From the NCBI RefSeq assembly GCF_008275125.1, contig NZ_CP043473.1, positions 2,790,001-2,854,000 of the forward strand: DNA of 64,000 bases, in the 5' to 3' direction. Each line of letters begins with the position of its first letter. Position 1 is the stretch's first letter. The notes beneath the pieces are model-generated. The model did not search any database, was not told the origin of the DNA, and saw only the letters and a list, made by a program, of their open reading frames with translations. Position numbers and translations under genes: made by a program. Source of the stretch: Chromobacterium paludis (GTDB taxonomy: Bacteria; Pseudomonadota; Gammaproteobacteria; Burkholderiales; Chromobacteriaceae). Below are positions 20,299-43,630 of the stretch, piece by piece.

Positions 20299-20340
20299 CG
20301 TGGGTTTCGTGGCGAAAACCGATTTTAGAAGGCATATACG

Positions 20341-21174: not shown

Positions 21175-21234
21175 GCCCGCAGGCGGGGCCAGGCCGCCCC
21201 GCTTGCCTTATCCTCATATCATTGCTATTCATTC

Positions 21235-21253: not shown

Positions 21254-21265
21254 AAAAGGATAACG

Positions 21266-21790
21266 ATGAAACCCTCTCCGCACCTGTTCGCCCAATTGTT
21301 CAGCAAGGCCTTGATCGCCCTGTCCATCGGCCTGTTCGGCCTGATGGTGGCCAGCGGCAATCTGCTCGATTACGACTCCAACTGGCAGTTTGTCCGCCAT
21401 GTGCTGAGCATGGACACCATGCAGCCGTGGTTCCACGGCGAGGCCTTGCGCGGCCGCGCCATCCACGATGAAACGATCCAGCGGCTGGCCTACGCCGCCA
21501 TCATCGCCGGCGAGCTGGCGGTGGGCGCGCTGTGCGCGGCCGGCGGCGCCATGCTGCTGGCAGCGGTCTGCCCCGCGCGCCGGGTCTGGCTCGCGCGCGG
21601 CAAGGCTTGCTTCACCCTGGGCGCGGCCTTGGCCATCCTGGTATGGCACACCGGCTTCGCCGTGATCGGCGGCGAATACTTCGCCATGTGGGCCAATCAG
21701 TTCAACGGCCAGTTCAGCGCCTACGCCTTCTCCGGCATCGCCCTGCTGGCGCTGATCTATGTGAACCAGCCGGAAGCCTCCGCCGCATAA
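21266..21790 (+). CDS. DUF2165 family small integral membrane protein
   Basis: 174 aa. Four hydrophobic segments at about 10-30, 75-100, 110-130 and 145-165. The conserved NLLDYDSNWQFVRHVLSMDTM after the first segment and the HTGFAVIGGEYFAMW stretch are typical of DUF2165 as I recall it. The start at 21266 has AAAAGGA upstream. Function unknown; a compact dyad precedes it and a terminator follows, so it is monocistronic. Confidence 0.85.
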   Translation: MKPSPHLFAQLFSKALIALSIGLFGLMVASGNLLDYDSNWQFVRHVLSMDTMQPWFHGEALRGRAIHDETIQRLAYAAIIAGELAVGALCAAGGAMLLAAVCPARRVWLARGKACFTLGAALAILVWHTGFAVIGGEYFAMWANQFNGQFSAYAFSGIALLALIYVNQPEASAA

Positions 21791-21816
21791 AAAAACCGCA
21801 TCGAGATGCGGTTTTT
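21791..21816. terminator. Bidirectional terminator between DUF2165 gene and rluA
   Basis: AAAAACCGCATC, two-base loop, GATGCGGTTTTT. A-rich on one side and T-rich on the other, so it serves both convergent genes. Confidence 0.9.
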
Positions 21817-21833
21817 GCGGGCGGCAAAGTAGA

Positions 21834-22511
21834 TCAGAACGGCGCCGGGGCCTCGAACTCCATCTCTTCAAACGTCACCGGATGGCGCAACACCAGCCGC
21901 GACGCGTGCAGCAGCAGGCGGTCGGCCTTGGCCAGCGCCTCCGGCGGCGCATAGATGTTGTCGCCCAGGATGGGATGGCCGGACTCCAGATGCAGCATGT
22001 GCATGCGCAGCTGGTGGGCGCGGCCGGTTTGCGGGTCCAGCTCCATGCGGCTGACGTTGCGCGTGGTGTCGCGCAGGATCACCCGGTAGCGGGTGATGGC
22101 CTCCTTGCCTTCGGCAAAGTCCACTTTCTGCCGCGGCCGGTTGGGCCAGTCTATGATCAGCGGCAGATCGATGACGCCGCTATTGCTCTCCACGATGCCG
22201 TCCACCACCGCGAGGTAGCGCTTCTTCACCTTGCGGTCCATGAAGGCGATGGACAGCGCGCGCTGCATCTCCGGGCCGCGCCCCATCACCACCAAGCCGG
22301 AGGTGTCCATGTCCAGGCGGTGCACGGTCAGTGCGTCCGGGTAAACCTTCTGCGCGCGGCTGATCAGGCAGTCGGCCTTGTCGTCGCCGCGCCCAGGCAC
22401 CGACAGCAGGCCGCTGGGCTTGTCCAGCACCAGCAGGCAGTCATCGACATAGATCACATTGAGTCCGGTGTCCGGCGGCGGGTTGTAATGTTCCAGATTG
22501 TGTCTTTGCAT
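21834..22511 (-). CDS. rluA: RluA family pseudouridine synthase (dual 23S rRNA/tRNA type)
   Basis: 225 aa from the ATG at 22511, close to E. coli RluA. The catalytic motif HRLDMDTSGLVV (Asp) is at about 63-74 and DPQTGRAHQLRMHM at about 168. No S4 domain is present, as expected for RluA, which modifies one 23S rRNA position and several tRNAs. The longer frame to 22604 lacks homology-like sequence. The ribosome site is weak. Ortholog naming is by length and motif only. Confidence 0.85.
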   Translation of the reverse strand: MQRHNLEHYNPPPDTGLNVIYVDDCLLVLDKPSGLLSVPGRGDDKADCLISRAQKVYPDALTVHRLDMDTSGLVVMGRGPEMQRALSIAFMDRKVKKRYLAVVDGIVESNSGVIDLPLIIDWPNRPRQKVDFAEGKEAITRYRVILRDTTRNVSRMELDPQTGRAHQLRMHMLHLESGHPILGDNIYAPPEALAKADRLLLHASRLVLRHPVTFEEMEFEAPAPF

Positions 22512-22662
22512 GGTTAGCGGCTTTGAAATTCGATTGGCGGCGATTATCGGCGCGAAGGCCGGGGACGACAAGCTGTTACCGTAGTTTGGCCACGGCGCTG
22601 TCACTTGAAATCCCCCTGCGCCGCCTGCACTCTGTCATGACAAGAGCAAACAAGGACACCCC

Positions 22663-23370
22663 ATGGCTGAACAGTTCTACCAAGATGCTTACCAGACCTG
22701 CCTCTCCACCCGCGTGCTGCGCCACGACGACGCCGGCCTCGCGCTGGAAGACACGCTGTGCTACCCGCTGGGCGGCGGCCAGCCGGGCGATACGGCCACG
22801 CTGACCGCGGCCGACGGCAGCACGCTGCGCATCGTAGACACCCGCCGCGACCGCGAAAGCCGCGTCATCCTGCACCAAACCGAAGGCGAGGCCCGTCTCC
22901 CGCCCGGAACCGAAGTGACACTGGAGCTGGACTGGGAACGCCGTTACCGCCACATGCGCATCCACACCGGCCTGCACTTGCTGGGCGTGGTGATCAAGAC
23001 CGGCGTCACCGGCGGCAATATGACCGCCGAATCCGGCCGGCTGGATTTCGACGTGCCGGAGGATATGGAGCTGGACAAGGAACATATAGAGAGGGAGCTG
23101 AACCGGCTGGTGGCGGCTGACCTACCCGTCACCATCAGCATGACCAGCGGCGAAGCGCTGAAGGCGCAGCCGGAGCTGATCCGCACCATGTCGGTGACCC
23201 CTCCCTTGCATCTGCCGGAAATCCGCCTGATCGAGATCGCCGGCGTGGACTTGCAGCCCTGTGGCGGCACCCACGTGGCGCGCACCGGCGAAGTGGGCCG
23301 CATGCGGGTGAAAAAGATAGAAAACAAGGGCGCGCGCAATAAGCGCGTGGTGGTGGAGCTGGTGGACTAA
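22663..23370 (+). CDS. alaX: AlaX-type alanyl-tRNA editing protein
   Basis: 235 aa. It is a stand-alone version of the AlaRS editing domain: GGGQPGD near residue 35, the zinc ligands in HTGLHLL (His-x3-His type, about 105) and CGGTHV (about 201). It removes serine or glycine wrongly attached to tRNA-Ala. An N-terminal beta-barrel of about 90 residues precedes the editing core, as in the medium-length AlaX-M class. A terminator follows the stop. Confidence 0.9.
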   Translation: MAEQFYQDAYQTCLSTRVLRHDDAGLALEDTLCYPLGGGQPGDTATLTAADGSTLRIVDTRRDRESRVILHQTEGEARLPPGTEVTLELDWERRYRHMRIHTGLHLLGVVIKTGVTGGNMTAESGRLDFDVPEDMELDKEHIERELNRLVAADLPVTISMTSGEALKAQPELIRTMSVTPPLHLPEIRLIEIAGVDLQPCGGTHVARTGEVGRMRVKKIENKGARNKRVVVELVD

Positions 23371-23392
23371 GCGCGACAGGCTCGCCCATAAC

Positions 23393-23423
23393 CAAGGGGG
23401 ACCTTCCGGTCCCCCTTGTGTTT
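23393..23423 (+). terminator. Terminator after alaX
   Basis: CAAGGGGGACC, loop TTCC, GGTCCCCCTTG, then GTGTTTT. An 11-bp stem between two convergent genes. Confidence 0.88.
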
Positions 23424-23437
23424 TATTGCCGGCTGGC

Positions 23438-24925
23438 TCAGCGCGCGTCCAGCGCCAGCTCGTGCTCCGGCTGCGCCGGCTTATCGTCCTGAGTCATGCG
23501 GTGCAGCCATGGCGCCAGCAAGATGGTCAGCACGGCGATGCCGCCGGTCACCACGCCGATCTGGGTAAACACGCGGCTGTAGATTTCCAGCGTGGCCAGC
23601 GGATCGGTCACATGATCCGGCGCCGCGGTCAGGCCGGCCACCTTGCCGGCGATCACCGACGACGCGGCGGACGTCAGGAACCACGCCCCCATGATGAAGC
23701 CCATCAGCCGCTGCGGCACCAGCCGCGCCACCATGGCCAGGCCCAGGCCGGAAATCAGCAGTTCGCCCAGGCTTTGCAGCAAGTAGCTCAGCACCATCCA
23801 GTTGGACGACACCAGGCCCTGCGCATTGGCGTACCTGGCCCCCAGCGGCAGCACCAGGAAAGCGCCGGCGCACAGCACCATGCCAATGGCGAATTTGTGC
23901 GGCATGGGCAAGCGGTCGCCCAGCTTGTTGTAGCAGACGGCAAGCAGCGGACTGGCCAGCATGATCCAGAACGGGTTCAGCGACATGAACTGTTCCGGCT
24001 GCACCGGGATGCCGAACAGGGTATGCACCGTGTTGTGGATGGCGAAGAAGTTCAGCGACAGCGGCATCTGGTTGTAGAGCACGAAGAACACCGTCGCTTG
24101 CAGCATCAGCACCGCGGCCACGATCATTTTCTTGCGCGCGGCGCCTGTCAGTTGCAGCGTTTCCTTGACGAAGAAGCCCACCACGCCGATGGAGAGCACG
24201 GCCAGCACGCCATTGGCGATCCGCTCATGCTTGAGCAGCAGCGCCGCGATGCAGCAGGCCAGCGCCACGCCGGCCAGCACGGCCAGCCAGGTGCCCAGCC
24301 TGGGGGAGCGGAAATCCGCCTCCGAGCCATACGCCTTCACCCAGCCCTGCATCAGCAGGAAATTGAGCACGGTGATGACCATGCCGGCCACGGACAAGGC
24401 AAACGCATGCGCATAGCCAAAGCGGTCCGCCAGCCATGGCGTAGCCAGCATGGACAGCAGCGAGCCGACATTGATGGCCATGTAATACATGGTGAAGGCG
24501 CCGTCCAGCCGCGGGTCGTTCGCCTCGTAGCACTTGGACAGCAGCGAGGACGGATTGGCCTTGAACAGCCCGTTGCCCACCGCGATGGTGCCCATGCCCA
24601 GATACAGCAGGCTGATATTGCCGGCGGACGCGGTCACCATGGCATAGCCGGCGGTCAGCACCAGCGCGCCCAGCAGGATGGTGCGGCGGGTGCCCAGCAC
24701 TTTGTCGCCCAGCCAGCCGCCTACGGACACCAGGCCGTACACCAGCGCGATGAAGGCGGAAAACAGCGTGAACGATTCGGCTTCGCGCAGGCCCAGCGCC
24801 TTCACGAGGTAAACGGCCAGGATGCCCTGCAGGCCATAGAATCCGAAGCGTTCCCAGAACTCGATGGTAAAGATCAAATAAAACGGCTTGGGCTGCCGCA
24901 AGGGGTTAAGCGCGCTCTGCGTCAT
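23438..24925 (-). CDS. POT/PTR family proton-coupled oligopeptide transporter
   Basis: 495 aa with about fourteen hydrophobic segments. The first one carries the POT signature ExxERFxFYG ([10 protein letters not shown]), essential for proton and peptide binding; [15 protein letters not shown] follows. It imports di- and tripeptides with protons, like E. coli DtpA/DtpB. The start at 24925 is preceded by AAGGAA. The upstream 415 bases are AT-rich and hold no gene. Confidence 0.9.
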
Positions 24926-31486: not shown

Positions 31487-31536
31487 TCTGGTGGCCCCCC
31501 GGGGAGTCGAACCCCGCACCAACGGATTATGAGTCC
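31487..31536 (-). other. att site: 3' half of a CAU-anticodon tRNA gene (left prophage end)
   Basis: Read on the minus strand: from the anticodon loop (CTCATAA) through the variable loop, the T arm (CGGGG-TTCGACT-CCCCG) and the acceptor end with encoded CCA. The 5' half of the tRNA is missing; unrelated sequence follows at 31537. The same 50 bases recur at 43581-43630 with a single mismatch. The tRNA could be Ile2 or elongator Met; the fragment alone does not decide. Confidence 0.85.
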
Positions 31537-31582: not shown

Positions 31583-31780
31583 TTAATCGCTATCATCTAA
31601 CTTTACAGCTTCATCAGCTGACAATAGCGTTGATCCTTCGTTGAACTTCTTGTCCCACTCCTCGCTTCCCCACTCCATTCCAACAGGTGCGGCATCAAGC
31701 CATTCTCGCTCTTCCTGAGTAAGCGGCGGGAAGTACACATCTACTCGTTTTCTATTGGGCACTATCAGCTCCCCAAGCAT
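31583..31780 (-). CDS. Small acidic protein of unknown function at prophage left end
   Basis: 65 aa from the ATG at 31780; a GTG at 31810 would add ten residues. No clear ribosome site for either. The sequence (PPLTQEEREWLDAAPVGMEWGSEEWDKKF...) is acidic with many Trp and Glu and no membrane segment. No family recognised. It lies between the left att site and a cluster of hairpins, on the same strand as the phage structural genes. Confidence 0.45.
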   Translation of the reverse strand: MLGELIVPNRKRVDVYFPPLTQEEREWLDAAPVGMEWGSEEWDKKFNEGSTLLSADEAVKLDDSD

Positions 31781-31787
31781 AAAACCG

Positions 31788-31926
31788 TGGGGCCTTGCCC
31801 CACACCCCACAAACGACCGCGTTTGATCCTCAGGGGCTGGGGTGAACCACCCCAGCCCCTGATTCAGGGTATCCTGCCTACGCTTGTCAAGGGCAAGACA
31901 AGTGGCCTACGGCCACCCTTGACAAG
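31788..31926. other. Cluster of three strong hairpins in prophage intergenic region
   Basis: (1) TGGGGC-CTT-GCCCCA, 31788-31802. (2) A perfect 15-bp stem with a 3-base loop, 31830-31844 with 31848-31862 (TCAGGGGCTGGGGTG). (3) CTTGTCAAGGG at 31883-31893 pairing with 31916-31926, with an inner GTGGCC/GGCCAC stem. Filamentous phages have such multi-hairpin intergenic regions as replication origins and packaging signals. Hairpin 2 could alternatively be a terminator. Confidence 0.6.
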
Positions 31927-32258
31927 GCGCATACGAATTCACAACAAACAGTTAAAAAAATACTTAGAAATACTTAGCTTTTATAGCCGTTATGTATGTA
32001 GTCATCTGAATTGATTGCACCTAATTTTAAATCGATCACAAAACCAACAAAGCGCAGGATACTTGTACTAGGTAAATCAAATTTTCCCTACGTATAAAAA
32101 CGGATAACGCACCCTTGCAATTTATCATAGCATGTGTTAATGATAACAGCATTGCCAGATGGCATGCCCAAACCGATACCTAATTTTAATAGCAACTTAC
32201 TGAATCTATTCATATTAAAAACCCGATTATTAAATCATAAAATTACCCTTGGAAAAAA

Positions 32259-33203
32259 ATGCATTACTTAGCCTTCTACAATATCAGAATCAAAGAAATT
32301 CAAACTGGAAAATATCTTAACCTTGACTCCTACTCCCCTGGAAAGGATGTCATAAAAGACTTGCATCAGTATGCCAAATCAAAATTAAACTCACCACAAA
32401 ACCACATGAAGAAGTCCACTGCTGGATTTCTATCTTACAATGTCACAGAATACAAAAGCTCGAAATTAGCATTAAAAGAAAGATATACCTATGGCATCCT
32501 TGAGACAGGAGAGAGTGGAAAAGCCTCAAGACTATTGGATACAACAAAAGTTGGAACGGCATCTGACCCGGTAGCCTATAATAAAAAAGTCGCTGATGCA
32601 ATGATGCAGCCGTTTACTTTTCTGCTATACGCACCTGCCAATTTAAACAGAGGGGTACTATGTTTACAAAAAAATGGTACTGCCGGAATAAAGGGATATT
32701 TCTTAGACACTTACATTAATCATTTCAAGCAATCTAACCCAGGCCTTGACATGGAACTATCAAGAATATCTCCTGCCAAAGCTATGGAGCACATCTTAAA
32801 AAGTGGCTTAGTAAAGAATTTTAGATTTATCAGAAAAGATGTTCCATCAGACATCACTGATCGACTAAAAAAATATGACGCTGACGCAGAGCCAGAAGAA
32901 ATGGAGTTGATAATAAAAGCAAAAAGATTTGGCTCACTCTTAGGAAGTGGCGTGTTATCACGCCTGCTAAAACATAACGCTCCTGACTTTAAATCGATTG
33001 TCGAATTTCCCGATGTTGAATTTGACACAATCAAAGTTGATGTTCAGATTGGAAGCAAAACAAGAAAGATTGACCTTGGAAAGCTCGGCTCAATAATAAC
33101 GAATGTAGACATATCCGATGAAGTTAAGTATGACAGCACAGGCTACCCCATATCTGACACCGTTAGGGATATTGCTATAGACATAGCAACTTCAATGGTA
33201 TAA
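32259..33203 (+). CDS. Unknown soluble protein, first gene of an AT-rich prophage cargo pair
   Basis: 314 aa, no signal peptide or membrane segment. The base composition is far more A+T-rich than the rest of the prophage, and it is on the opposite strand to the phage genes. GGA lies 8 bases before the ATG. The middle (about 125-160) reads QPFTFLLYAPANLNRGVLCLQ then KGYFLDTYINHF, and about 195-205 NFRFIRKDVPSDITDRL. This pattern I associate with uncharacterised proteins from defence-gene neighbourhoods, but I cannot name the family. It ends 2 bases before a membrane-protein gene, so the two surely form one unit. Size and pairing recall Kiwa (KwaB about 315 aa with a four-helix KwaA), in reversed order; homology is not shown. 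Confidence 0.75.
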   Translation: MHYLAFYNIRIKEIQTGKYLNLDSYSPGKDVIKDLHQYAKSKLNSPQNHMKKSTAGFLSYNVTEYKSSKLALKERYTYGILETGESGKASRLLDTTKVGTASDPVAYNKKVADAMMQPFTFLLYAPANLNRGVLCLQKNGTAGIKGYFLDTYINHFKQSNPGLDMELSRISPAKAMEHILKSGLVKNFRFIRKDVPSDITDRLKKYDADAEPEEMELIIKAKRFGSLLGSGVLSRLLKHNAPDFKSIVEFPDVEFDTIKVDVQIGSKTRKIDLGKLGSIITNVDISDEVKYDSTGYPISDTVRDIAIDIATSMV

Positions 33204-33205
33204 CC

Positions 33206-33787
33206 ATGCTAAGTAAAATCAACATAAAATCAATCATCATTTCTCATGTGAAAACACTAAGAAACAGTACATCGCCTGATGTATGCTGGTCTGATTTTAT
33301 TGTCTTCTACATTATTCCATTTGTTTTTGCACTTGGGCTTTCAATAAAATTTGACATAACAGAATCATTTGTCAACGGAGTTGTCACTGCAGCCTCAATA
33401 TTCGCCGGTCTATTACTTAACTTACTAGTACTGGTATATACCGTCTTATCAAGACAACGCCCAACCCCTCCAGATCAGAACAGTAAAAACAGACGAGAAA
33501 TTTTTGAAAAAATACTAACAGAAACCTTTTCAAACATTAGTTATAGCATTCTAATATCTGTTGTATTGGTGGCAACCTGCCTTCTGTTTTATATAAAGGG
33601 TGGATACTTTCCAACAGGAAACAGACTGCTTATACTATTCCTAATATTTCAATTAATCATAACTTTGCTTATGATTTTGAAAAGAATTCACAGTCTTTTT
33701 GAGAATGAGCTTACCGAAGAGCGTGATAAAAATAAAACCACCTCACAAAGCGAAGAAGAGGACTCACCCCGCAATCCTCTAAACTAG
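33206..33787 (+). CDS. Four-helix membrane protein, second gene of the cargo pair
   Basis: 193 aa. Four hydrophobic segments: about 30-45 (FIVFYIIPFVFALGLSI), 53-80 (VVTAASIFAGLLLNLLVLVYTVL), 113-132 (ISYSILISVVLVATCLLFYI) and 142-162 (LLILFLIFQLIITLLMIL). A cytoplasmic loop of about 30 residues lies between helices 2 and 3, and the tail is highly charged (EERDKNKTTSQSEEEDS). It starts 2 bases after the soluble gene, so translation is coupled. A small membrane effector paired with a soluble sensor is a common layout of abortive-infection systems; that role is inference. Family unrecognised. Confidence 0.75.
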   Translation: MLSKINIKSIIISHVKTLRNSTSPDVCWSDFIVFYIIPFVFALGLSIKFDITESFVNGVVTAASIFAGLLLNLLVLVYTVLSRQRPTPPDQNSKNRREIFEKILTETFSNISYSILISVVLVATCLLFYIKGGYFPTGNRLLILFLIFQLIITLLMILKRIHSLFENELTEERDKNKTTSQSEEEDSPRNPLN

Positions 33788-33804
33788 CCATCTCAAAATA
33801 AAGA

Positions 33805-33826
33805 GAGGGAGTTTCAAAGCTCCCTC
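33805..33826. terminator. Hairpin between cargo pair and phage small genes
   Basis: GAGGGAG, 8-base loop, CTCCCTC. On the minus strand TCTTTATTTT follows, so it probably ends the phage structural operon; it may also end the cargo transcript. Confidence 0.6.
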
Positions 33827-33860
33827 CCGACTGAAACGAGACAAATATAAGTCATTTGAC

Positions 33861-34205: not shown

Positions 34206-34454
34206 TCAGCCTCCTAATAGCTTGCGCCTGGCATCCGCCAAAGGCAAGTACTCGATCTGGTAACCCTCTTTTTCCCATAAAGGGCGTTTCTCCGCAAGAA
34301 ATGGCGCATTCGCCTTATTGTCACGAACCATCATGAGCCGATGTCCTTCAGGTGTCGTCACGAGGTAAGCATGGGTGGCGTAGGTGTATTCGGTCAAGTT
34401 CAGAGGACCATCCGGTGTCGGCATGATAATCGGGTCTTGCTTGTGGTCTGACAT
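34206..34454 (-). CDS. Hypothetical phage protein, 82 aa
   Basis: 82 aa, soluble. MSDHKQDPIIMPTPDGPLNL opens it, with LPLADARRKLLGG at the end. No family recognised. It is embedded in a run of four very small same-strand genes after the secretin gene, with spacings of zero to one base around it, so it belongs to the phage operon. Confidence 0.55.
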   Translation of the reverse strand: MSDHKQDPIIMPTPDGPLNLTEYTYATHAYLVTTPEGHRLMMVRDNKANAPFLAEKRPLWEKEGYQIEYLPLADARRKLLGG

Positions 34455-34455
34455 G

Positions 34456-34584
34456 TCATGCCTCCAGAATCAAACGACGAATCAGCCAGAGCGCAGTTGC
34501 CAAGGCCAGCCAGAAGTAGCGGGTTTGCCAGAAGATGCTGCGGTGGCGTTCGTCCCATGCCACCAGAATCCAGTTCAAAAGCAT
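34456..34584 (-). CDS. Small Trp-rich membrane protein (phage)
   Basis: 42 aa: MLLNWILVAWDERHRSIFWQ, then a hydrophobic helix (FWLALATALWLI) and RRLILEA. It is preceded by AAAGGAACC and its stop is one base before the next start. Rich in Trp, with one membrane segment. Function unknown; a candidate morphogenesis or host-interaction factor. Confidence 0.5.
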   Translation of the reverse strand: MLLNWILVAWDERHRSIFWQTRYFWLALATALWLIRRLILEA

Positions 34585-34633
34585 GATGGTTCCTTTCTGT
34601 TGTCGATGCTTCACGGCATCGTGCTCGGTCCTG

Positions 34634-34697
34634 CGCTGTTACCGCCGTGGCATGCTGTCCTCGCTCCGCTGCGGGAGCTGCCACGGCGGCAACAGCG
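34634..34697. other. Long compound hairpin downstream of phage secretin gene
   Basis: Two 19-base arms (34634-34652 and 34679-34697) pair with one mismatch (core CCGCCGTGGCA/TGCCACGGCGG). The loop contains an inner GCTCC/GGAGC stem. A smaller GATGC/GCATC hairpin lies just to the left (about 34603-34618). The location in a gene-free gap of the phage operon fits a replication origin, packaging signal or terminator for the secretin transcript. Confidence 0.55.
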
Positions 34698-34704
34698 GAG
34701 GGGA

Positions 34705-35997
34705 TCAAATCGGCGTGGCATCCTCGACTTGCACCAACACCACTATTTCGCTGCTGCTCAATTGCTTCGCGTTGCTCACAGCCCAGGATGTGAAGGGGAA
34801 GAAGCTGCGGTCTTGTGTCTCCTTCTGTGTCTTGAGGCCGCCGATGACGTATACGTCGCCGGGCTTGGCATCAAAAGTCGTGGTCAGGTTGCGCGTCATA
34901 AGCGTGGGCGAGCTATTGACCCCAGTCTTGGTGGGAACGAAGTTGGAGACTTCTTGGTTAAGTTGCAGGCTGACCACTTCACCACGAATCTGCGGCCGGG
35001 CCTCGATCACGATCCCTGACGGCTTGTAATCGACGGATTGGAGCGGGTTGCCCTTGTTGTCGTAGCTGACCTGGCCAAGAACGGGAACGTTCTCCCCGGA
35101 CTGGAAGCGAGTCAGCTGGCCATCTGCAGCCAACACATCCGGGCGCGTGACGACATTGAACCGGCTATCCGTGGCAAACAGCTCGGCCAGAACATCCAGC
35201 GATGTGGACTGCAAGCGGAATACCGAAGAACCGGCAACGGCCGCACCTGCCGCACCGATGTGTAGCGACAGCTTTTGCGAGGCACTGCGAATGACTGCCC
35301 CCAGGTTGAAACCTTCGTTGCTGCTGCCGCTGACCTCGTAGACGACCGCCCGGACACGCACTTGCTTGGCTGGCGTATCCAGGCTGGCCAGATAGCCTTT
35401 CAGCTTGGCTACTTCCTCTTCGGTACCGTTGAAGACCAGCGTATCGGTCGGCCGGCTTTGCAGGCTCAGCGGGGAGTCACCCCTGTCGTTGCTGGCCTTG
35501 GGGGCTCCGTCGCTACGCGGTGCCGGGCGGTTTTGCACGAAGTGGCCAGTAGCGAACAAACCGCCGATCAGGTCGCTCAGGTAGTTGGCATCGCGGAAGC
35601 GCGGGTGATAGATGAACACTTGGTCGGCAATGGGCTTTTCGCCGTCTTCGCGCAATCGGATGAAATCCACCCCGCCACGGCGTTGAACGAGGAATCCAGC
35701 ACTGCGCATGGCCTCCATGAACATGCTTTTCACCTGTGCCGGCGGGATGCGCTCTAGCGACATGGTGAATACGGCGTCGGACTTGGCGGCTGTCGGGTCA
35801 ATGACGAATGGCGACTTCTGAATTTGGGTGTAATAGGCCATTACAAAGTCGCTGACCGGGATACGGTCGAAGGTCATCGAAATGCCGGGAATCGATTTGC
35901 CAAATGCTGCGGTGGGCGGTAGCGGCGTGGCCTGGCAATGGCCTGTCGCCATCAGACCCAGCAAGGACAGAGCAGCGAGCGGGCGCGAAACATTCAT
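34705..35997 (-). CDS. Filamentous phage pIV-like secretin
   Basis: 430 aa. Signal peptide to about residue 24; N-terminal N0-type domain (ISMTFDRIPVSDFVMAYYTQIQKSPFVIDP); N1-type repeat; then the secretin core with VRAVVYEVSGSSNEGFNLGAVI (about 200), RFNVVTRPDVLAADGQ and the C-terminal barrel segment VSLQLNQEVSNFVPT...TTTFDAKPGDVYVIGGL. It forms the outer-membrane channel through which phage leaves the cell. It overlaps the Zot gene by 4 bases. A phage with its own secretin is independent of host type II channels. Confidence 0.88.
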   Translation of the reverse strand: MNVSRPLAALSLLGLMATGHCQATPLPPTAAFGKSIPGISMTFDRIPVSDFVMAYYTQIQKSPFVIDPTAAKSDAVFTMSLERIPPAQVKSMFMEAMRSAGFLVQRRGGVDFIRLREDGEKPIADQVFIYHPRFRDANYLSDLIGGLFATGHFVQNRPAPRSDGAPKASNDRGDSPLSLQSRPTDTLVFNGTEEEVAKLKGYLASLDTPAKQVRVRAVVYEVSGSSNEGFNLGAVIRSASQKLSLHIGAAGAAVAGSSVFRLQSTSLDVLAELFATDSRFNVVTRPDVLAADGQLTRFQSGENVPVLGQVSYDNKGNPLQSVDYKPSGIVIEARPQIRGEVVSLQLNQEVSNFVPTKTGVNSSPTLMTRNLTTTFDAKPGDVYVIGGLKTQKETQDRSFFPFTSWAVSNAKQLSSSEIVVLVQVEDATPI

Positions 35998-37106
35998 TTG
36001 GGCAACGCCTCCCCGAGCAACGATGCATCACTCTTAGCTGAACCAGACGAAAACGAGACTGCCTGGCCATCTACCTCGGCAGAGGTGGCAAATCCGTCAG
36101 GCACGAATCTAGTCGGCGTCACCGTTTGGATGCCTTCCGGGGTTCTGACCAGCACCCGAATGTTGTCCCCGGTAGACAAGTAGCCCACGAGGGCTACCCT
36201 GCTTTTCCCCGAAGAAGAAGACTTACCGACAGATAGCTTTTCTTCCAGCAAGCCGGAGGATGAGGCATCGGCTGTTTGCTTGGTTTGCGGTGCCGCCGGC
36301 TTGTGCGAATCACCCAGCAGATAGGGAGCAAACACACTGTATAAGCCGTAAAGGCCAGCAGCTGGCGCAAGCAGCGCGCAGCTGAAAACCAGCGCGTTTT
36401 TCTTGGTAAAGAGTGTGGCACGCCCATCTACCTTAACCTCTTTACCGACGCCACCGACATGCGAGTCATACAGCCCGAAGTAATCTTTGTCGTACTTGGC
36501 CTGATACTGGCTGATGACATCCTTGATGCGCATCTTGTGGCCTTCGTAAATGGTGATCACATAGCGATTCTTCCAATACGGGATGGCCGCGAGCGCGGTA
36601 TGCTTTTTCATGTGGAACGTCTGCTGAATCGTGGCTTTGACAAAGCGATTCAGCGACGTGTCGATGTCCTGGCAGAGAAAGACCAGATCGCAGGTCACAC
36701 CAGTAACTGGATGTGCATAGTGGCGATGCATTCGGAAGAACTTCTTGTGCTCTTCCGATAGCTTGCGATCCGGGCCATGGGTTTCCCAGGCCTCATCGAT
36801 CACCACTAGATCACCGGGTCTGACGAAGCTATCGACCTCGCCATTGGTGGCCAGCAGCAACTCGGGATCAAAGAAAAAATTCGGTGCGAGGATGATTTCC
36901 GGCGTCAGAGGGACGATTTCCCCGAGTGGTGCCTCTGGTTTGGCAAGCGCCTTACGTTCGATCAGGGCATGAATCTTATCTTGCCGGATGTTGCGGATAT
37001 TGGTGAGCACACGCCGCCCCTGGGCGATAGCGGGAACGATAACCGATTTGACTGCTTCGAATGACTTGCCCGAGCCTTGCAAGCCGCAATAAACGTACAT
37101 GGCCAT
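35994..37106 (-). CDS. Zot-domain filamentous phage assembly protein (pI)
   Basis: 370 aa. Walker A GLQGSGKS at residues 8-15, Walker B-like LVVIDEAW (about 93-100) and RMHRHYAHPVTGVTCDLVFLCQD typical of the Zot/pI ATPase. A single transmembrane segment at about 238-262 places the ATPase in the cytoplasm and a C-terminal domain in the periplasm, where it meets the secretin. It powers phage extrusion. Similar domains occur in the zonula occludens toxin of phage CTX; toxin activity is not implied here. Confidence 0.92.
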   Translation of the reverse strand: MAMYVYCGLQGSGKSFEAVKSVIVPAIAQGRRVLTNIRNIRQDKIHALIERKALAKPEAPLGEIVPLTPEIILAPNFFFDPELLLATNGEVDSFVRPGDLVVIDEAWETHGPDRKLSEEHKKFFRMHRHYAHPVTGVTCDLVFLCQDIDTSLNRFVKATIQQTFHMKKHTALAAIPYWKNRYVITIYEGHKMRIKDVISQYQAKYDKDYFGLYDSHVGGVGKEVKVDGRATLFTKKNALVFSCALLAPAAGLYGLYSVFAPYLLGDSHKPAAPQTKQTADASSSGLLEEKLSVGKSSSSGKSRVALVGYLSTGDNIRVLVRTPEGIQTVTPTRFVPDGFATSAEVDGQAVSFSSGSAKSDASLLGEALPK

Positions 37107-37117
37107 GATGGAGTTCC

Positions 37118-37405
37118 TTAGCCGATGACTGGCAAGCGCCGGATGAGAAAACGGCTGATAGAGGCGCTAACGATCAGCGGCAAGCCATATTGAAGTTGCA
37201 GGAGACTGGCGTAGTACCAAACGCCTGCCGGCACAGCCCGAATCAAGCCGGACAAATTGAGCGCATTGGGTAGGGCATAGGTGATGACTTCAGCCAAGAT
37301 TTTCACCACGAAAAACATGCCAAAGGCGACCACGAACTTGACCAGCACCGAGCGAAAAATCCATCCCAAGGCGGTCCAGATTGCCGATTGCAGAAATGCC
37401 CACAT
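37118..37405 (-). CDS. DUF2523 minor coat protein (pVI-like)
   Basis: 95 aa from the ATG at 37405. Three hydrophobic segments (about 1-20, 22-45 and 65-85), with MWAFLQSAIWTALGWIFRSVLVKF at the start and ISRFLIRRLPVIG at the end. DUF2523 proteins of inoviruses correspond to pVI, which with pIII caps the virion end. It lies between the pIII-like and Zot genes, the expected place. Confidence 0.85.
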   Translation of the reverse strand: MWAFLQSAIWTALGWIFRSVLVKFVVAFGMFFVVKILAEVITYALPNALNLSGLIRAVPAGVWYYASLLQLQYGLPLIVSASISRFLIRRLPVIG

Positions 37406-37407
37406 GG

Positions 37408-38739
37408 CTATGCCCTCAATACGATAAAGAACGCCATCAGCCCCCAGCAGGCAGCAAAGACAGGCTCCAGAATGGGACGAACCTTCTCGAGCATGGCGCA
37501 TTGCTCATCCAAGTGATGCACCGCCCCTTCTCGGAAAAAGGACAAATCCAGATCAACTGAAGGGCATTGACCATCGCCGGAGGGCAAGGCCACGCCCTTC
37601 AATGGGTTCAAGGCATCAATGACGGGCTGCATGATCTGTAAACCGGTAGGCGTCTCTTCCAACTGCGGTTCAGCTACCGTCGGCGCAGTTCCAAGATCGA
37701 CGGTTGTGCCTTGGCTACCGGTGCCCGTATTGGTAGTAGCGCCAGTACCACCCCATGTTCCAGGCAGAGTAATTGACGGGTCCCAATATGGCGTCCCGGG
37801 GCGGGCATCGGCCCAGCCGGCCGGAGCCTGATCATTAGAGCCAACCGCAATAGGAGCTAATGCACCGCTCAGCGGAGTAGATACACCAGTAGCCTTGATA
37901 TCGGATGCGCTGATCGAATTGGGACGGGATAACTCCGGAGGCCATGCAAGACCTGGCGCACGCTGCCGCGCATCATCTATTGCTGAAGAAAGCGCGGCAG
38001 CAATAAGTGCAGGGTTCACTTGATCATTGGCACGGGAGTCCGGCAAGTCTGATGCTGCAAGAGTATTGCTAGTGATTGGCCGAGGTTGATAGCGTAGGTC
38101 CTTCAACAGCTTGGGAGGGGTCTTCTCCATGATAAGGACCAGTTGGTAGATATGGTTATCACCGACATAGCCAAGTCCTGTGCAGGCCGAAACGCTATAG
38201 CCAGAAGCATCCAGAGTGCCGCGGGGGCAGTTGCAAACAGTGTCCGGCGTTGGACAAGCATATTGCTTGGTACGCAGGAAGATCGCGGTGTCACCATTGG
38301 GACGATTAGCAAAGACTGCATCGTTGGGGTAGCCCATCACCATCAGAGCATCCACCAGGCTGGATGAAGGTAAGGCACGTGTTGGCATCTGCGACAGGTC
38401 CATACTCGGACCAGAGAATGTAACGCTGGCACCGTCACCATGTACCAACACCCCTGGCGTTTGCTCATCGAATACCCCGGTATTCACGGCCATCATCAGC
38501 GGCGCCGCTAACACTACTGACTTCCCCAAGAATCGAACAGCTGACGAACGGGCAACCGTTCGCATGATCTGTGCGCCAAGCTGGGTATTCACTTTGAGCG
38601 TGGCCAGTTTATCCGCCAATGCAGCGCCCATTGCTGCGTTGACAGCGACAGATGAGGACGGCATTCCATTCACCAGGGCAGAACCGGCTAAAGCGCCCTG
38701 AGACAGCACAATGGCAGCGCCACATAGTAAACGCTTCAT
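37408..38739 (-). CDS. pIII-like adsorption protein of filamentous phage
   Basis: 443 aa from the ATG at 38739. Signal peptide MKRLLCGAAIVLSQGALAG. The middle is low-complexity (Thr, Gly, Pro, Ala; about 320-365), like the linkers of pIII, and two Cys-rich patches (CPTPDTVCNCPRG, about 150-165) precede it. The C-terminus ends in a hydrophobic helix (FAACWGLMAFFIVLRA) with no cytoplasmic tail, as in pIII. It would bind the host receptor, so its N-terminal part sets host range. The start overlaps the 28-aa gene upstream. Confidence 0.78.
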   Translation of the reverse strand: MKRLLCGAAIVLSQGALAGSALVNGMPSSSVAVNAAMGAALADKLATLKVNTQLGAQIMRTVARSSAVRFLGKSVVLAAPLMMAVNTGVFDEQTPGVLVHGDGASVTFSGPSMDLSQMPTRALPSSSLVDALMVMGYPNDAVFANRPNGDTAIFLRTKQYACPTPDTVCNCPRGTLDASGYSVSACTGLGYVGDNHIYQLVLIMEKTPPKLLKDLRYQPRPITSNTLAASDLPDSRANDQVNPALIAAALSSAIDDARQRAPGLAWPPELSRPNSISASDIKATGVSTPLSGALAPIAVGSNDQAPAGWADARPGTPYWDPSITLPGTWGGTGATTNTGTGSQGTTVDLGTAPTVAEPQLEETPTGLQIMQPVIDALNPLKGVALPSGDGQCPSVDLDLSFFREGAVHHLDEQCAMLEKVRPILEPVFAACWGLMAFFIVLRA

Positions 38740-38822
38740 ATGGATTTGAGCCCTTGGACCACAGCGTTCCCGCAAGAGACTCCCAGTGCGAAAGCAGCCA
38801 GATACCACCATTCAGCAGCCAT
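38736..38822 (-). CDS. 28-aa minor coat-like membrane peptide
   Basis: 28 aa: MAAEWWYLAAFALGVSCGNA then VVQGLKSI. It is a Trp/Ala-rich hydrophobic peptide of the size of the pVII/pIX minor coat proteins. Its stop overlaps the start of the pIII-like gene (ATGA). GAAGGAATG-type sequence lies directly upstream of its start. It is placed after the coat-gene terminator. Confidence 0.6.
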   Translation of the reverse strand: MAAEWWYLAAFALGVSCGNAVVQGLKSI

Positions 38823-38856
38823 GTGCATTCCTTCAACAGATTGATCAGTCGAAATG

Positions 38857-38884
38857 CCCGGACTTTCGCATGCGAAAGTCCGGG
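38857..38884 (-). terminator. Perfect 28-bp palindrome downstream of major coat gene
   Basis: CCCGGACTTTCGCA followed at once by its exact reverse complement; on the minus strand CATTTCG follows. Filamentous phages have a terminator just after the major coat gene that gives high coat-protein mRNA and lower downstream expression. This sits in exactly that position. Confidence 0.75.
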
Positions 38885-38893
38885 TCCGGACGC

Positions 38894-39142
38894 TTAGCCC
38901 TTCATGCGCTTGCGTACAGCATCGAAAGCGAAGCCGATGGCAACCAGGCCGATCATGCTGATGCAGATCGAGGCCACGGCTTGGGCTACCTTAGCGACAG
39001 GGAATGCAGCCACGAAACTGTCGATAAGCGCCGCAGTATCCACGCCGCTAGTAGCCGGAGCGGGGTCCGCAGCAAAGGCGAGCGCCGGGACTGCCAAGAT
39101 GGCAACCAGAGCAAGTTTTTTGATATGAGCATTGGTGTGCAT
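38894..39142 (-). CDS. Major coat protein (pVIII-like) precursor
   Basis: 82 aa. Signal peptide ending ALAFA before ADPAPATSG, then a short acidic/neutral amphipathic segment, a single transmembrane helix (about 55-75, ASICISMIGLVAIGFAFDAV) and a basic C-terminus RKRMKG that would contact DNA in the virion. This is the classic pVIII plan. AAAGGAAAA upstream serves as ribosome site. A strong terminator follows. Confidence 0.88.
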   Translation of the reverse strand: MHTNAHIKKLALVAILAVPALAFAADPAPATSGVDTAALIDSFVAAFPVAKVAQAVASICISMIGLVAIGFAFDAVRKRMKG

Positions 39143-39154
39143 TGCGTTTTCCTT

Positions 39155-39397
39155 TTAAACACGGGTTTTGAACGGTTTGAACAAGAAGGCCCCATAGCGG
39201 GCAATAACCCAGCTCGATACAACCATGGCAAAGGCGAACGCCCAGAAAACGCCAGCCGTTTGCCAGTTGACCGATTGGGATTTCTGCATCGCGGCATACT
39301 CCTGCGGCGAAAGCAGTACGAGGGTCTGGCATTGCTCGATCTGGGTCGTATCCAGATGCAGCAAGCCGGACTCATCAGAGCGGACGCACTGAGCCAT
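39155..39397 (-). CDS. Small phage membrane protein, 80 aa
   Basis: 80 aa from the ATG at 39397, overlapping the end of the replication gene by 23 bases. The N-terminal half is soluble (SGLLHLDTTQIEQCQTLVLLSPQEYAAMQ), then one membrane helix (about 50-70) and KPFKTRV. It lies just upstream of the major coat gene, where inoviruses keep small coat or morphogenesis genes. Exact role unknown. Confidence 0.65.
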   Translation of the reverse strand: MAQCVRSDESGLLHLDTTQIEQCQTLVLLSPQEYAAMQKSQSVNWQTAGVFWAFAFAMVVSSWVIARYGAFLFKPFKTRV

Positions 39398-41243
39398 GGG
39401 GTGGCCTTCGCGGGTGCGTCGCAGAATTGGATAACCGGGAGAAAGTTGGGTCTGAACTGAAATCCAGCCCAACGCTATCCGATCGATTCACGAGGCAGGG
39501 CAACTGTGGGCGGTTAGCCCCTCCTCTCACATCGGCCCTAGCTTCGACAAAAGTGGGTTTCGTACAGTTATTGACACTAGTCGAACTAACTGCGGGCTCG
39601 TTTCGCTCGCGGTTAGGTTCGAACTCGACCGTCCATTCATGGCGTCGGGATTGAATGAAGACACCATCCTCGCAGTCAGCGACACCCAGAATACGAACTC
39701 CGACTTCCTCGCCATACCGGTTTGTACGGCCGGTTTCGCGGCATAGCCGTATGGGCAAATCACTCAACCTAAGCCCAGTACCACCCAGCGCTCGCACAAA
39801 ACCCGCCCAATCACCGGCATCGGCAGCTTCAGCTGCCCGGCGGATCACTTCACTGTCTATCACCGTGCCGTCGTTCGCAGCGATACGCCGCAGCTCGCGC
39901 CACAAGGTGACAGGCGCGACGCCGACCTGCTGAAACTGGCGAATCCCCCAACACGATGCCCAAGCCCGCACACGCTCGGCTGCAGTGACCGTATCAAGTC
40001 CGTCAAAGTTGATACCTACCGCATCGCCATTGCTTTTCTTACCATCCACGTTCTTGCAAACATACTTGGCGACATAACCAGCAGCCGTGCCACGCGCCCA
40101 ATCAATTTCAATGCACTTGAAGCGTGCCTCGAGATTTCCGGCCAACTCTTCACGATCTTGACGAGTTGCGTACTCACGGAAGATCGAGACCAGCTCACCC
40201 ACCTGATTTGCCGGAACAAACAACAGCAAGTGCCAATGTGGACAGCCATCGTGGTGCGGTTCTGCGATGCGGAAGCCGTAAGGGGAAATCTTTCGACGAT
40301 GTAGCTCCGCACGTATGTAGGAATAAACGCGGGATAGGTATTGCTGTGCTTGCCGTGGGGTACTGCCGTTATATTTAGGATTCTTGATTACCCTGCCCTT
40401 CTCAAGTTTACGGAAGGCATGGAAAAGTGATGGACAAGTAATCGTCAGAAAAAGAGCCACATGCTCCAAAGAACGGGCAATGGCTTCGAAACCAGCAATA
40501 CGGGTCATCAGTTCAGCGCGGCGAACATCTGGATTCGATACGGATAGATCAGCTAATTCGGCTAAAGTAAACTTGTCGCCCAATTCATTAAATGCCACTA
40601 GGCTTTCCAGCAGTGCGCGGTTTCGGCAGCGCTGCAAGCGAAATCGGTCCAGCGTATCATCTGATACGTATAGCCCGTTTTGCTGATTGACTAGGCCAAT
40701 GCGGATCGCCTCAGACTCTACCTTTCGAGGGAGTTCCGTTCCATAAACCGTACGCCAGAATTTTTCATCGGTTATTCGTTGAAACTGGGACTCAAACGTT
40801 ATTTTCTTTTTACTGGATAGAATCAGGCGTACTCCATCCTCAGGAGCATTTTCATCATCCCAGAGAAACACCCCACGCTCTGCCAGGTAGCCAGACAGGC
40901 TCTGAAAGATGGTTGGGTAATCTGCTCCATTAGACCAGCGCCGAACGTTCAGAATGTGTTGCACTGTTTCTACCGCTGCCTGGCGTAATTCGTCGTGACT
41001 AGCTGCTAAATTTTGACCACCACCAATTTTCACAAAGTGATCACGGCAGTCTTGCACGTACAGGTTGGCGGCACGACGGGCATCGCCGTCGTACCGGAAC
41101 TCCTCGGAAAAAAGCAGCTTGTTATGCTGCCGCCGAATCCGCTTGGCGAACTGCGTGGGAACGGCACGGAGCCAGCTATCCACCCACTCACGATCTTCCA
41201 CGAGGCAGGCGCGGCGGTATTCGAGTGACAGCGGATGCAGCAT
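39375..41243 (-). CDS. Phage rolling-circle replication initiator (GPA family)
   Basis: 622 aa. The HUH metal-binding motif is CPHWHLLLF (about 330), and the paired catalytic tyrosines are in GYVAKYVCKNVDG (Tyr-x3-Tyr, about 388-394). This is the layout of phage replication gene A proteins, which nick the origin and restart rolling-circle synthesis. An N-terminal helical region of about 250 residues precedes the nuclease. It takes the place of gene II of Ff phages. It starts 2 bases after the stop of the small gene upstream. Confidence 0.88.
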   Translation of the reverse strand: MLHPLSLEYRRACLVEDREWVDSWLRAVPTQFAKRIRRQHNKLLFSEEFRYDGDARRAANLYVQDCRDHFVKIGGGQNLAASHDELRQAAVETVQHILNVRRWSNGADYPTIFQSLSGYLAERGVFLWDDENAPEDGVRLILSSKKKITFESQFQRITDEKFWRTVYGTELPRKVESEAIRIGLVNQQNGLYVSDDTLDRFRLQRCRNRALLESLVAFNELGDKFTLAELADLSVSNPDVRRAELMTRIAGFEAIARSLEHVALFLTITCPSLFHAFRKLEKGRVIKNPKYNGSTPRQAQQYLSRVYSYIRAELHRRKISPYGFRIAEPHHDGCPHWHLLLFVPANQVGELVSIFREYATRQDREELAGNLEARFKCIEIDWARGTAAGYVAKYVCKNVDGKKSNGDAVGINFDGLDTVTAAERVRAWASCWGIRQFQQVGVAPVTLWRELRRIAANDGTVIDSEVIRRAAEAADAGDWAGFVRALGGTGLRLSDLPIRLCRETGRTNRYGEEVGVRILGVADCEDGVFIQSRRHEWTVEFEPNRERNEPAVSSTSVNNCTKPTFVEARADVRGGANRPQLPCLVNRSDSVGLDFSSDPTFSRLSNSATHPRRPPHGSVRPL

Positions 41244-41245
41244 GA

Positions 41246-41563
41246 TTAGTCCTCGATGGCGTAGTAGCTATTCACAACTGGCCGGCGAGAAAAGCGCTCG
41301 CCAGTTTCCTTGTCGGTGTAGACAAACGATTTGCCACGATAGCCACCGCAGCTCACAAGGCATTCGATAGTCTCTCCCGACTGGCCTATCCGCTTTTTCG
41401 AACGAACTTCAACAGTAGCCGGCGGGCTGTATTCATCTGGTGCCGGCAGAGTGACTTCGGTGTAGAAAAATTCCTCTGACTTACGGATCGTATTCACGCG
41501 TCCGCGCAGAACGGACTGATTCGGCTTCAAATTCAGCTTGATGGCTTCTTGAGGGGTACTCAT
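41246..41563 (-). CDS. Putative phage ssDNA-binding protein (pV-like)
   Basis: 105 aa, predicted beta-rich (SVLRGRVNTIRKSEEFFYTEVTLPAPDEYSPPATVEVRS...). Size, basic/aromatic pattern and position just before the replication gene fit the gene V type ssDNA-binding proteins that coat phage plus strands. A ribosome site (AAGAAGGAATCC) precedes the ATG. Assignment is from context more than from motif. Confidence 0.6.
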   Translation of the reverse strand: MSTPQEAIKLNLKPNQSVLRGRVNTIRKSEEFFYTEVTLPAPDEYSPPATVEVRSKKRIGQSGETIECLVSCGGYRGKSFVYTDKETGERFSRRPVVNSYYAIED

Positions 41564-41601
41564 GTGGATTCCTTCTTCAAAGATTGATATTCACGTCAGG
41601 C

Positions 41602-41850
41602 TTAAGAGAACTCTTTTTCCAAGCAGCGCTTACGAAGCAACTCTAGATTTATGAGGCTGTAGCGCCCCACCGTTATGCATGGGACAAGCCCACGGTTACA
41701 CCACCCAACTACCACTCCAGGAGCCACCCCGCACATAGCGCTGAATAGTTCTCGAGTGACTAATGGGCTGGTAATGTTGGACAACAAGGGAGTGTCAGCA
41801 CCGCTCCTTTGAGGTCGCTCCAGGTTGTCAAGAGATAGAACGTTGCCCAC
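41602..41850 (-). CDS. Small HTH DNA-binding protein (phage early regulator)
   Basis: 82 aa. The C-terminal half (VTRELFSAMCGVAPGVVVGWCNRGLVPCITVGRYSLINLELLRKRCL) looks like a MerR/excisionase-type helix-turn-helix with a wing. It is the first gene of the leftward replication operon, directly facing the divergent repressor across a palindromic operator, so a Cro-like or Xis-like role is plausible. Confidence 0.65.
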   Translation of the reverse strand: MGNVLSLDNLERPQRSGADTPLLSNITSPLVTRELFSAMCGVAPGVVVGWCNRGLVPCITVGRYSLINLELLRKRCLEKEFS

Positions 41851-41882
41851 AATAGATCCATGTAGTTTGCTAAGTTATAAAA

Positions 41883-41913
41883 TTTGCCTAGGTAAAAAAT
41901 TTACCTAGGCAAA
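41883..41913. promoter_or_regulatory. Palindromic operator of the prophage switch
   Basis: TTTGCCTAGGTAAA (41883-41896), AAA, TTTACCTAGGCAAA (41900-41913): a perfect 14-bp inverted repeat. Each arm contains the self-complementary CCTAGG, so each can bind one dimer. It lies between the divergent starts of the HTH gene (41850) and the repressor (41944), where a lysogeny switch operator belongs. Confidence 0.8.
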
Positions 41914-41943
41914 GTATGCCATTTCATGAAAGGATGTCAAGCT

Positions 41944-42507
41944 ATGAGTGCGCTCAACGAGCGAATGAGAGAGGTCATTGCCGCTGCAACCCACGAGAGC
42001 GACAGATACAAGACATTAGAGAGCTTGACTGGTATCAACCGGACAACATGGTCGAACTTCATGAAGGGCAAGCAATACGCAAGCTACGAGATGATTGAAG
42101 CGATTTGCCGGCTGTGGGAGCAGTGGACGTTGTACATAGTGATTGGCAAAGGGGAGCGACCAGATATTGATCCTGACCGCGACACTTATGCGGAGGTCTT
42201 GCCTCAAGATGGCGGAGTAGTCTTGAAGCGAGATCGAAAGGGACGCGCTGTAGCCAACATCCCCCATCTGTTGAACTGTCGCGCCCCTTATGACCCTGCA
42301 AATTTTGAGTGGGGCTACCGAGGAGTCGGCCCCTACGAGCTGTCAGCCAATATCTTGTATTTATTCGGCATGCCAGAGCAAGCAGCTCAAAAGCATGCCC
42401 AAGCATTCTGCGATGAGGTTGTAAGTAGTCTCCCCCATCAAGAAGCCTTTATCTCAGTTGAGCGCATTAAAGAATGGATTGAAGGGAGGCACGTCCTCGC
42501 TTCATGA
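41944..42507 (+). CDS. Prophage repressor-like protein with DUF6166-like C-terminus
   Basis: 187 aa from the ATG at 41944 (AAGGA about 10 bases upstream; 41926 is an alternative). Residues about 5-60 form a helix-turn-helix (YKTLESLTGINRTTWSNFMKGKQYASYEMIEAICRLW). The C-terminal part (NFEWGYRGVGPYELSANILYLFGMPEQAAQKHAQAFCDEVV) resembles the DUF6166 domain. It is transcribed away from the replication operon and shares the palindromic operator with it, so it is the likely lysogeny repressor. The integrase follows 18 bases later, probably in the same transcript. Confidence 0.7.
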   Translation: MSALNERMREVIAAATHESDRYKTLESLTGINRTTWSNFMKGKQYASYEMIEAICRLWEQWTLYIVIGKGERPDIDPDRDTYAEVLPQDGGVVLKRDRKGRAVANIPHLLNCRAPYDPANFEWGYRGVGPYELSANILYLFGMPEQAAQKHAQAFCDEVVSSLPHQEAFISVERIKEWIEGRHVLAS

Positions 42508-42525
42508 AGCCTTTGTGAGGACAAC

Positions 42526-43533
42526 ATGACGATAAAGCAAGTTAAAACAGGCTGGCAGGTCAACATCCAGCCAGGAGGACGGGGGGCCAAGAGGCTTAAG
42601 AAGACATTTCCCACAAAAGCAGAAGCGGTAGCGTGGGAACGATATGTAAGGGCAAAGGTCCAGCAGGAGCCAGAATGGGCTCCTGCCAAGAAAGACCCTC
42701 GCTCACTCTCCGAACTTGTTGACCTCTGGTTTCAGCACCATGGTTCAGGCTTACGATCTGGACAGGGCACATACCAAAGGCTACTGCTCATGTGCCAAGC
42801 GATGGGCAATCCACGCGCCGAGACTTTTTCCGCAGACCTATTTGCGGCCTATAGGGCAAACCGGCTCGCGGCCGGAATCTCCGCCAGCAACATGAATCGT
42901 GAGCATGCCTACATGAGAGCCGTTTTTAACGAGCTGATCAGGCTTGGCCTATGGAAGAAGGAAAATCCGCTCCAGAAGCTACGCTCCTTCAAGATACAGG
43001 AGCGGGAACTCTCCTACCTGACCGCAGAGCAGATACAAGCTCTGCTCCAAGCATTGCAAACCGGCCGTAACCAGCACGTCCAGCTCATCGCCAAGGTGTG
43101 CTTGGCAACTGGCGCGCGCTGGGGAGAGGCTGAGGCCCTTCGCAGATCGCAAGTCAGGAATGGGGTGATCCAGTTTGTACAAACCAAATCATCCAAGGCG
43201 AGAGCCATACCGATTACATCGGAGCTAGAGAAAGAGCTGTGCGATCACCATCGGGAACACGGCAATGGAGAGAGGCTGTTTGAAACCGCCTTCTCAGCAT
43301 TTCGAGAAGGGGTGGCGCGCGCCAGCCTGACGCTGCCGGCGGGACAGCTGACCCACGTCCTTCGTCACAGCTTTGCCAGTCACTTCATGATGAACGGCGG
43401 CAACATCCTGGTGCTGCAAAGGGCGCTGGGCCACCACAACCTCACCATGACCATGCGGTACGCCCATCTTTCACCCGACCATTTGAGCGAAACCCGAGAG
43501 CTGAACCCGCTACGCGCGTTGAACCTTTGTTGA
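42526..43533 (+). CDS. Tyrosine recombinase (prophage integrase)
   Basis: 335 aa. N-terminal SAM-like core-binding domain (about 60-150); catalytic domain with Arg in TGARWGEAEALR, HVLRHSF (His-x2-Arg), the GHHNLTMTMRYAHL box with the nucleophile Tyr. All catalytic residues are present. Most filamentous phages integrate with host XerCD; one with its own integrase at a tRNA gene is less common. It reads toward the right att site, separated by a terminator. Confidence 0.9.
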   Translation: MTIKQVKTGWQVNIQPGGRGAKRLKKTFPTKAEAVAWERYVRAKVQQEPEWAPAKKDPRSLSELVDLWFQHHGSGLRSGQGTYQRLLLMCQAMGNPRAETFSADLFAAYRANRLAAGISASNMNREHAYMRAVFNELIRLGLWKKENPLQKLRSFKIQERELSYLTAEQIQALLQALQTGRNQHVQLIAKVCLATGARWGEAEALRRSQVRNGVIQFVQTKSSKARAIPITSELEKELCDHHREHGNGERLFETAFSAFREGVARASLTLPAGQLTHVLRHSFASHFMMNGGNILVLQRALGHHNLTMTMRYAHLSPDHLSETRELNPLRALNLC

Positions 43534-43547
43534 ACCCGACAAAGCAA

Positions 43548-43576
43548 AAGGGGTTGCGCTTGCGCGCAACCCCTTG
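43548..43576 (+). terminator. Terminator after prophage integrase
   Basis: AAGGGGTTGCGC, loop TTGC, GCGCAACCCCTT, then GATTGT. It lies just inside the right att site. Confidence 0.85.
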
Positions 43577-43580
43577 ATTG

Positions 43581-43630
43581 TCTGGTGGGCCCCCGGGGAG
43601 TCGAACCCCGCACCAACGGATTATGAGTCC
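43581..43630 (-). other. att site: second copy of the tRNA(CAU) 3' half
   Basis: The same 50 bases as 31487-31536 with one mismatch (G for C at the acceptor stem). Again the 5' half of the tRNA is absent; unrelated AT-rich sequence follows. It marks both the right end of the inovirus prophage and the left end of the next integrative element. Confidence 0.85.

Follow-up and report, generated by a model that had tools for sequence, protein, structure and literature searches.

Within a 64,000-nucleotide stretch of the Chromobacterium paludis chromosome (contig NZ_CP043473.1, positions 2,790,001 to 2,854,000; hereafter the window, in whose coordinates positions are given), an inovirus prophage carries two adjacent protein-coding genes, here called A and B, that very probably form a RexAB-type exclusion, or abortive-infection, module kept as lysogenic cargo, with a mechanism that is taken from its relatives. 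Gene A (32259-33203, plus strand) encodes a RexA-like protein of 314 amino acids (aa) and gene B (33206-33787, plus strand) a RexB-like protein of 193 aa with four transmembrane (TM) segments. Systems of this kind are already known, five of them (lambda, Pseudomonas putida, CarolAnn, Sbash and Butters) being counted in a 2026 paper (PMC12894663), and the pair belongs with these rather than being the undescribed system that the original prediction had proposed. What is unusual is the carrier, a filamentous phage, of what is very probably a distant version of lambda RexA-RexB.

Profile scans of both proteins with Pfam, NCBIfam and PADLOC gave no reliable match, and the PHROG families into which they fall, 15676 for A (3e-7) and 15250 for B (3e-5), have no function assigned there. 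The best fold of the structural model of A is RexA, and the model displays the two-domain RexA/RdgC fold; direct sequence comparison of A with lambda RexA gave no match. The A-family profile recognized gp44 of CarolAnn, a proven Rex-like sensor, at 0.0023 and then at 5.9e-7, hhalign of the A family with five actinobacterial-type proteins gave 98.3%, and the reverse test with the window A protein alone reached an E-value of 0.8. Sequence comparison therefore points to homology with gp44 at the level of the family or profile only. A search for the RdgC sequence family returned one unrelated weak Pfam match (0.1) for the window A up to E 1, and no Pfam match for three kin of A up to E 10. A would be a cytosolic RdgC/RexA-fold protein, for which dimerization and, from its proven relatives, sequence-independent DNA binding are predicted.

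No hydrophobic segment was found in A, while B has four (residues 31-49, 59-77, 111-129 and 141-159), which agrees with the soluble and four-helix membrane proteins first described; the TM count of four was made on the window B and four other B proteins. B does have the long charged tail remarked on earlier, but this tail exceeds that of the 17 other aligned copies and so is not a family trait. Direct comparison of B with lambda RexB gave no match, a fold search of B against the PDB gave none under 0.001, and CarolAnn gp43 was not recognized by the B profile (E 2.7), which clearly matches DumpsterDude gp43 and Doggs gp34. PP_5644 of P. putida was accepted as RexB in print although HHpred gave no homologue. 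B also shows weak similarity to PADLOC PDC-M18B (0.017 for the window B) and RdrD: of 55 B members, one M18B model matches 3 (best value 0.00065) and another matches 2 (best value 0.0013), and M18A matched none of 23 A members.

The pairing of the two genes is conserved. A tblastn search with A found the Pf phage PfAC16 (28% identity over 48% of the length of A) and one further record of the same protein, and the gene following the PfAC16 relative is a relative of B. Used alone as query, A found only itself and one 60% relative; it matched no plasmid, neither it nor the PfAC16 A matched any viral contig, and the PfAC16 A matched none of the genome contigs. The relatives were obtained by searching through B. 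This gave 17 IMG/VR contigs, all of which have an A frame of 302-323 aa before B, with a spacing that ranges from a 4 bp overlap to an 11 bp gap, and with 15 distinct A proteins among the 17. Intact A precedes B in eight of nine named bacterial loci, the eight being from Paludibacterium (the same place as genome G043), two Vibrio, Alteromonas, Buttiauxella, Pectobacterium (where B extends off the contig), Pantoea and a gammaproteobacterial metagenome-assembled genome (MAG). In a Marinifilaceae MAG (L038, 7028-8016), a short B follows an A that is split over two overlapping frames, through decay, a frameshift or an assembly error. A is present in 2 of 61 genomes of the window's own family, and profile searches of a protein database gave at least 5 matches for A and at least 88 for B. 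PHROG 15250 matched 2 of 398 genomes of the phylum, a figure that is an undercount, as the window's own genome was missed at E 0.001.

Among the described systems, lambda RexA-RexB likewise combines a soluble RdgC-fold protein with a four-TM membrane protein, A before B, in a temperate phage, and just as rexA-rexB sit after cI, some relatives of the window pair lie just downstream of a repressor; the differences are that sequence similarity is not directly detectable and that the window B has a family of its own. CarolAnn gp44/gp43 share the gene order and a reported four-TM partner, but these and Sbash gp30/gp31 come from tailed phages of actinobacteria. The pair gp44-gp43 of Gordonia phage DumpsterDude, a published Rex homologue, matches the A and B profiles at 1.3e-8 and 5.2e-20; it is located between repressor and integrase, and its A shares one base with the immunity repressor gene, although its carrier is a tailed actinophage and identity to the window proteins is 15% (A) and 22% (B). 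The hypothetical gp33-gp34 of Gordonia phage Doggs (MT498059, L044), near the integrase, also match both profiles; the Rex homologues listed in the consulted section of PMC11077077 do not include them. RexABpp from prophage P1 of P. putida (PP_5643/PP_5644) has a RexA fold in its authors' model and four TM segments, and two genes separate it from a CI-like repressor upstream. PfAC16 ORF1-ORF2 form an A-B pair that also occupies one edge of its inovirus genome, but they have 26% and 32% identity to the window A and B and fall on a separate tree branch; PMC11878078 lists PfAC16 only with toxin-antitoxin (TA) genes and PfsE, with no "rex" in its main text.

The carrier is a 12.1-kb element bounded by a 50-bp direct repeat, one copy of which is the 3' part of a tRNA-Met gene (31487-31536, plus strand) and the other of which lies at 43581-43630 (plus strand). 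The copies agree at 49 of 50 positions, and their 36-bp core is expected 0.00 times by chance (100 shuffles). The element is an inovirus prophage. On the minus strand it encodes a pIV-like secretin (34705-35997; Pfam Secretin 1.7e-19, PHROG 1012 5.7e-82), a pI-like assembly ATPase with a Zot domain (35994-37106; Pfam Zot 7.9e-19, PHROG 197 2.8e-59) and a GPA/pII-like replication initiator (39375-41243; Pfam Phage_GPA 4e-75), and on the plus strand a putative repressor (41926-42507; DUF6166 3.4e-14, with a helix-turn-helix (HTH) match to HTH_31 at 0.002, under its cut-off) and a tyrosine integrase (42526-43533; Pfam Int_N 4.3e-37, Phage_integrase 3.8e-20). A and B, separated by 2 bases, are on the strand opposite to the structural genes. 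G+C content is 0.346-0.390 in 500-bp segments starting at 32250-33250, against 0.53-0.61 for those starting at 34750-39500 in the prophage and 0.62-0.67 for those starting at 20000-24500 in the chromosome. The pair does sit at the prophage edge, but "next to the att site" was loose, for A begins 723 bp inside the attachment (att) repeat.

The same inovirus, flanked by the same att repeats, is present in the congeneric genome G016, with 91.9% identity to the window over 34221-41649 and 97.5% over 42541-43630. In the slot of A-B it carries (contig 17, L054 3254-7643) RmrA (4.7e-171) and RmrT (2.6e-75), which constitute RosmerTA, together with a 481-aa protein of no assigned function; a search of G016 for A at E 0.001 gave no relative. 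RosmerTA systems are described as phage defence in PMC10440598, and their position in the sister prophage therefore identifies this as a defence cargo slot. It suggests that this filamentous phage keeps such a slot in the manner of the accessory flanks of Pf phages, reported as defence cargo sites in PMC11878078. It is surprising both that a filamentous phage should carry a Rex pair and that the pair is exchanged with RosmerTA. Together with the conserved pairing and the RexA fold, this defence company gives good support to two earlier proposals, that the pair is moron-type cargo and that a soluble sensor acts with a small membrane effector in exclusion or abortive infection. The slot is bordered on its left by a 162-bp hairpin-rich module (31764-31925, no strand assigned) with a perfect 15-bp stem at 31830-31862 and an 11-bp stem at 31883-31926. 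One copy is present at this border in the window and two in G016, at about 3089-3254 and 4937-5097 of L054, either side of the 481-aa gene; it may correspond to the intergenic region of the phage or to a border for recombination.

A RexA-like protein could instead serve mainly to tune the phage's own switch from lysogeny to production, as RexA acts at lambda CI/Cro, with exclusion as a by-product. PMC11077077 reports non-specific binding to operator-containing DNA for RexA and three of its actinophage homologues, and a bias that lambda RexA exerts on the switch. Relatives of the pair also adjoin repressors: a repressor/HTH gene was near upstream in all six relatives checked, which were picked by eye out of about 30 loci (L005, L008, L015, L019, L021 and L027), with one gene between in L019 and with the L005 gene scoring below the Pfam cut-off although its annotation is immunity repressor. 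Unlike lambda rexAB, the window pair is not beside a repressor when integrated, since the HTH and integrase genes lie on the same strand but beyond the att junction; its coordinates imply that the circular form would have the plus-strand order repressor candidate, integrase, attP, A, B. A regulatory tie is conceivable, as the repressor region also differs between the two prophages. No alignment to the sister prophage was obtained for window positions 41650-42540, which hold the HTH/DUF6166 gene, and this putative immunity gene seems to have been swapped as well. Nevertheless, RosmerTA replaces the pair in a prophage with a 92% identical core, so that the phage seems not to need it for self-regulation, and the high A+T content suggests a late arrival. 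We consider switch tuning an unlikely main function.

As an exclusion module, the pair would work by analogy with its proven relatives. B would be a small inner-membrane protein of four helices that stays silent as long as the lysogen is uninfected. Once the lytic programme of another phage begins, probably that of a tailed double-stranded DNA (dsDNA) phage, A may encounter a product or DNA-protein intermediate that is specific to infection and switch B on. B would then oligomerize and damage the membrane by opening it, the cell would depolarize and cease growth, and the second infection would be aborted; the non-lytic, chronically shed inovirus would thereby retain its host population. The logic could also be reversed, with cytosolic A as the toxic effector and membrane B keeping it silent, as in gp30/gp31 of mycobacteriophage Butters. 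By the account in PMC12894663, this arrangement is that of one of the five Rex-like systems, and in the remaining four, those of lambda, P. putida, CarolAnn and Sbash, the effector is the membrane protein; the window sequence itself decides neither way, and we regard reversal as improbable.

Two further explanations survive less well. An addiction pair of membrane toxin and antitoxin, acting only to stabilize the prophage, would have two coupled genes and a small membrane protein, and the accessory genes of Pf phages include TA pairs (PMC11878078). Yet the best fold of A is that of RexA and not of an antitoxin, and the pair is found in several kinds of element, with a P2-like gpD tail gene (L019), an Ogr/Delta finger (L036) or an integrase (L037) as neighbours, which makes this explanation very unlikely. 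A Kiwa-type system, the nearest layout named in the original prediction, is close to refuted: sizes and the pairing of a small membrane protein (KwaA, with four helices according to that prediction) with a soluble one agree, and Kiwa occurs in Pf phage PfAC02a, but neither KwaA nor KwaB was matched in PADLOC at E<=10 (HMMER filters drop most matches above about 0.1), hhalign probabilities were 0.2-0.4% against PfAC02a KwaB and 0.1% against its KwaA, the membrane gene is second here and first in the kwaA-kwaB order of PfAC02a, and the top fold is RexA. A phmmer search for KwaB in the PDB found none, only two fimbrial chains.

For the RexAB-type pair, a single clade of the window A and the PfAC16 A was rejected (p-AU 2.0e-5; 7e-58 for B), also when the two relatives nearest to the window A were included (8e-4), in a test of inovirus carriers that grouped rows by carrier type and was run after the first tree had been seen. 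The PfAC16 A clusters with A of seven viral contigs, including L019 with its P2-like gene (100/99). These trees fit two separate acquisitions by inoviruses, if P0002 and L012 do not derive from an intermediate inovirus. No Zot/secretin marker was found in the L012 carrier, where a reverse transcriptase of the RT-Toprim_I-C defence group (2.6e-206; 8668-10479) lies directly behind the A-B pair. Nor did any of the 17 viral loci show Zot or secretin (E<=1e-6) within the retrieved flanks, which extend up to 8 kb in each direction, so inovirus carriage of the pair looks rare.

Rex exclusion goes back to Benzer's work on T4 rII, and we know of no established account of its trigger. We tentatively propose that Rex has been recruited at least twice by inoviruses into a swappable defence slot, and that the sensor ignores the single-stranded DNA (ssDNA) rolling-circle replication of its carrier and fires on lytic dsDNA phages. 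If the inoviral sensor is blind to its own carrier, "phage replication or recombination intermediates" would be too broad a description of the trigger, and the inovirus lineage could reveal what RexA actually reads. A Rex pair in an ssDNA-replicating phage within a living host offers a sharp test of the replication-intermediate hypothesis, and the PHROG 15676/15250 family adds natural Rex variants carried by phages, inoviruses among them, and by further kinds of mobile element in a number of bacterial families. A literature search found no paper joining "RexAB" with "inovirus", an absence that is unproven as preprints and most subscription papers lay outside its coverage; "RexA" and "filamentous phage" co-occur in at least two reviews.

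Around the pair, a promoter scan performed no better than on shuffled sequence, and a terminator-like hairpin, from a pattern scan only, lies between B and the convergent structural operon (33803-33828, minus strand). ARAGORN placed an unusually long 93-nt tRNA-Ala (tgc), which may be a false call, at 57259-57351. A third copy of the att repeat occurs at genome position 2876033, 42.4 kb further on, where it continues, as read by eye, into a complete tRNA-Met beside a sigma-70-like gene; the inovirus is therefore in tandem with a second element. This runs from 43631 to past the window end (genome 2833631-2876068, about 42 kb), with the same tRNA-Met repeat at both ends and an integrase of its own, assigned by eye, at 43799-45085. 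At its start, 214 bp are 100% identical in the congeneric genome G017.
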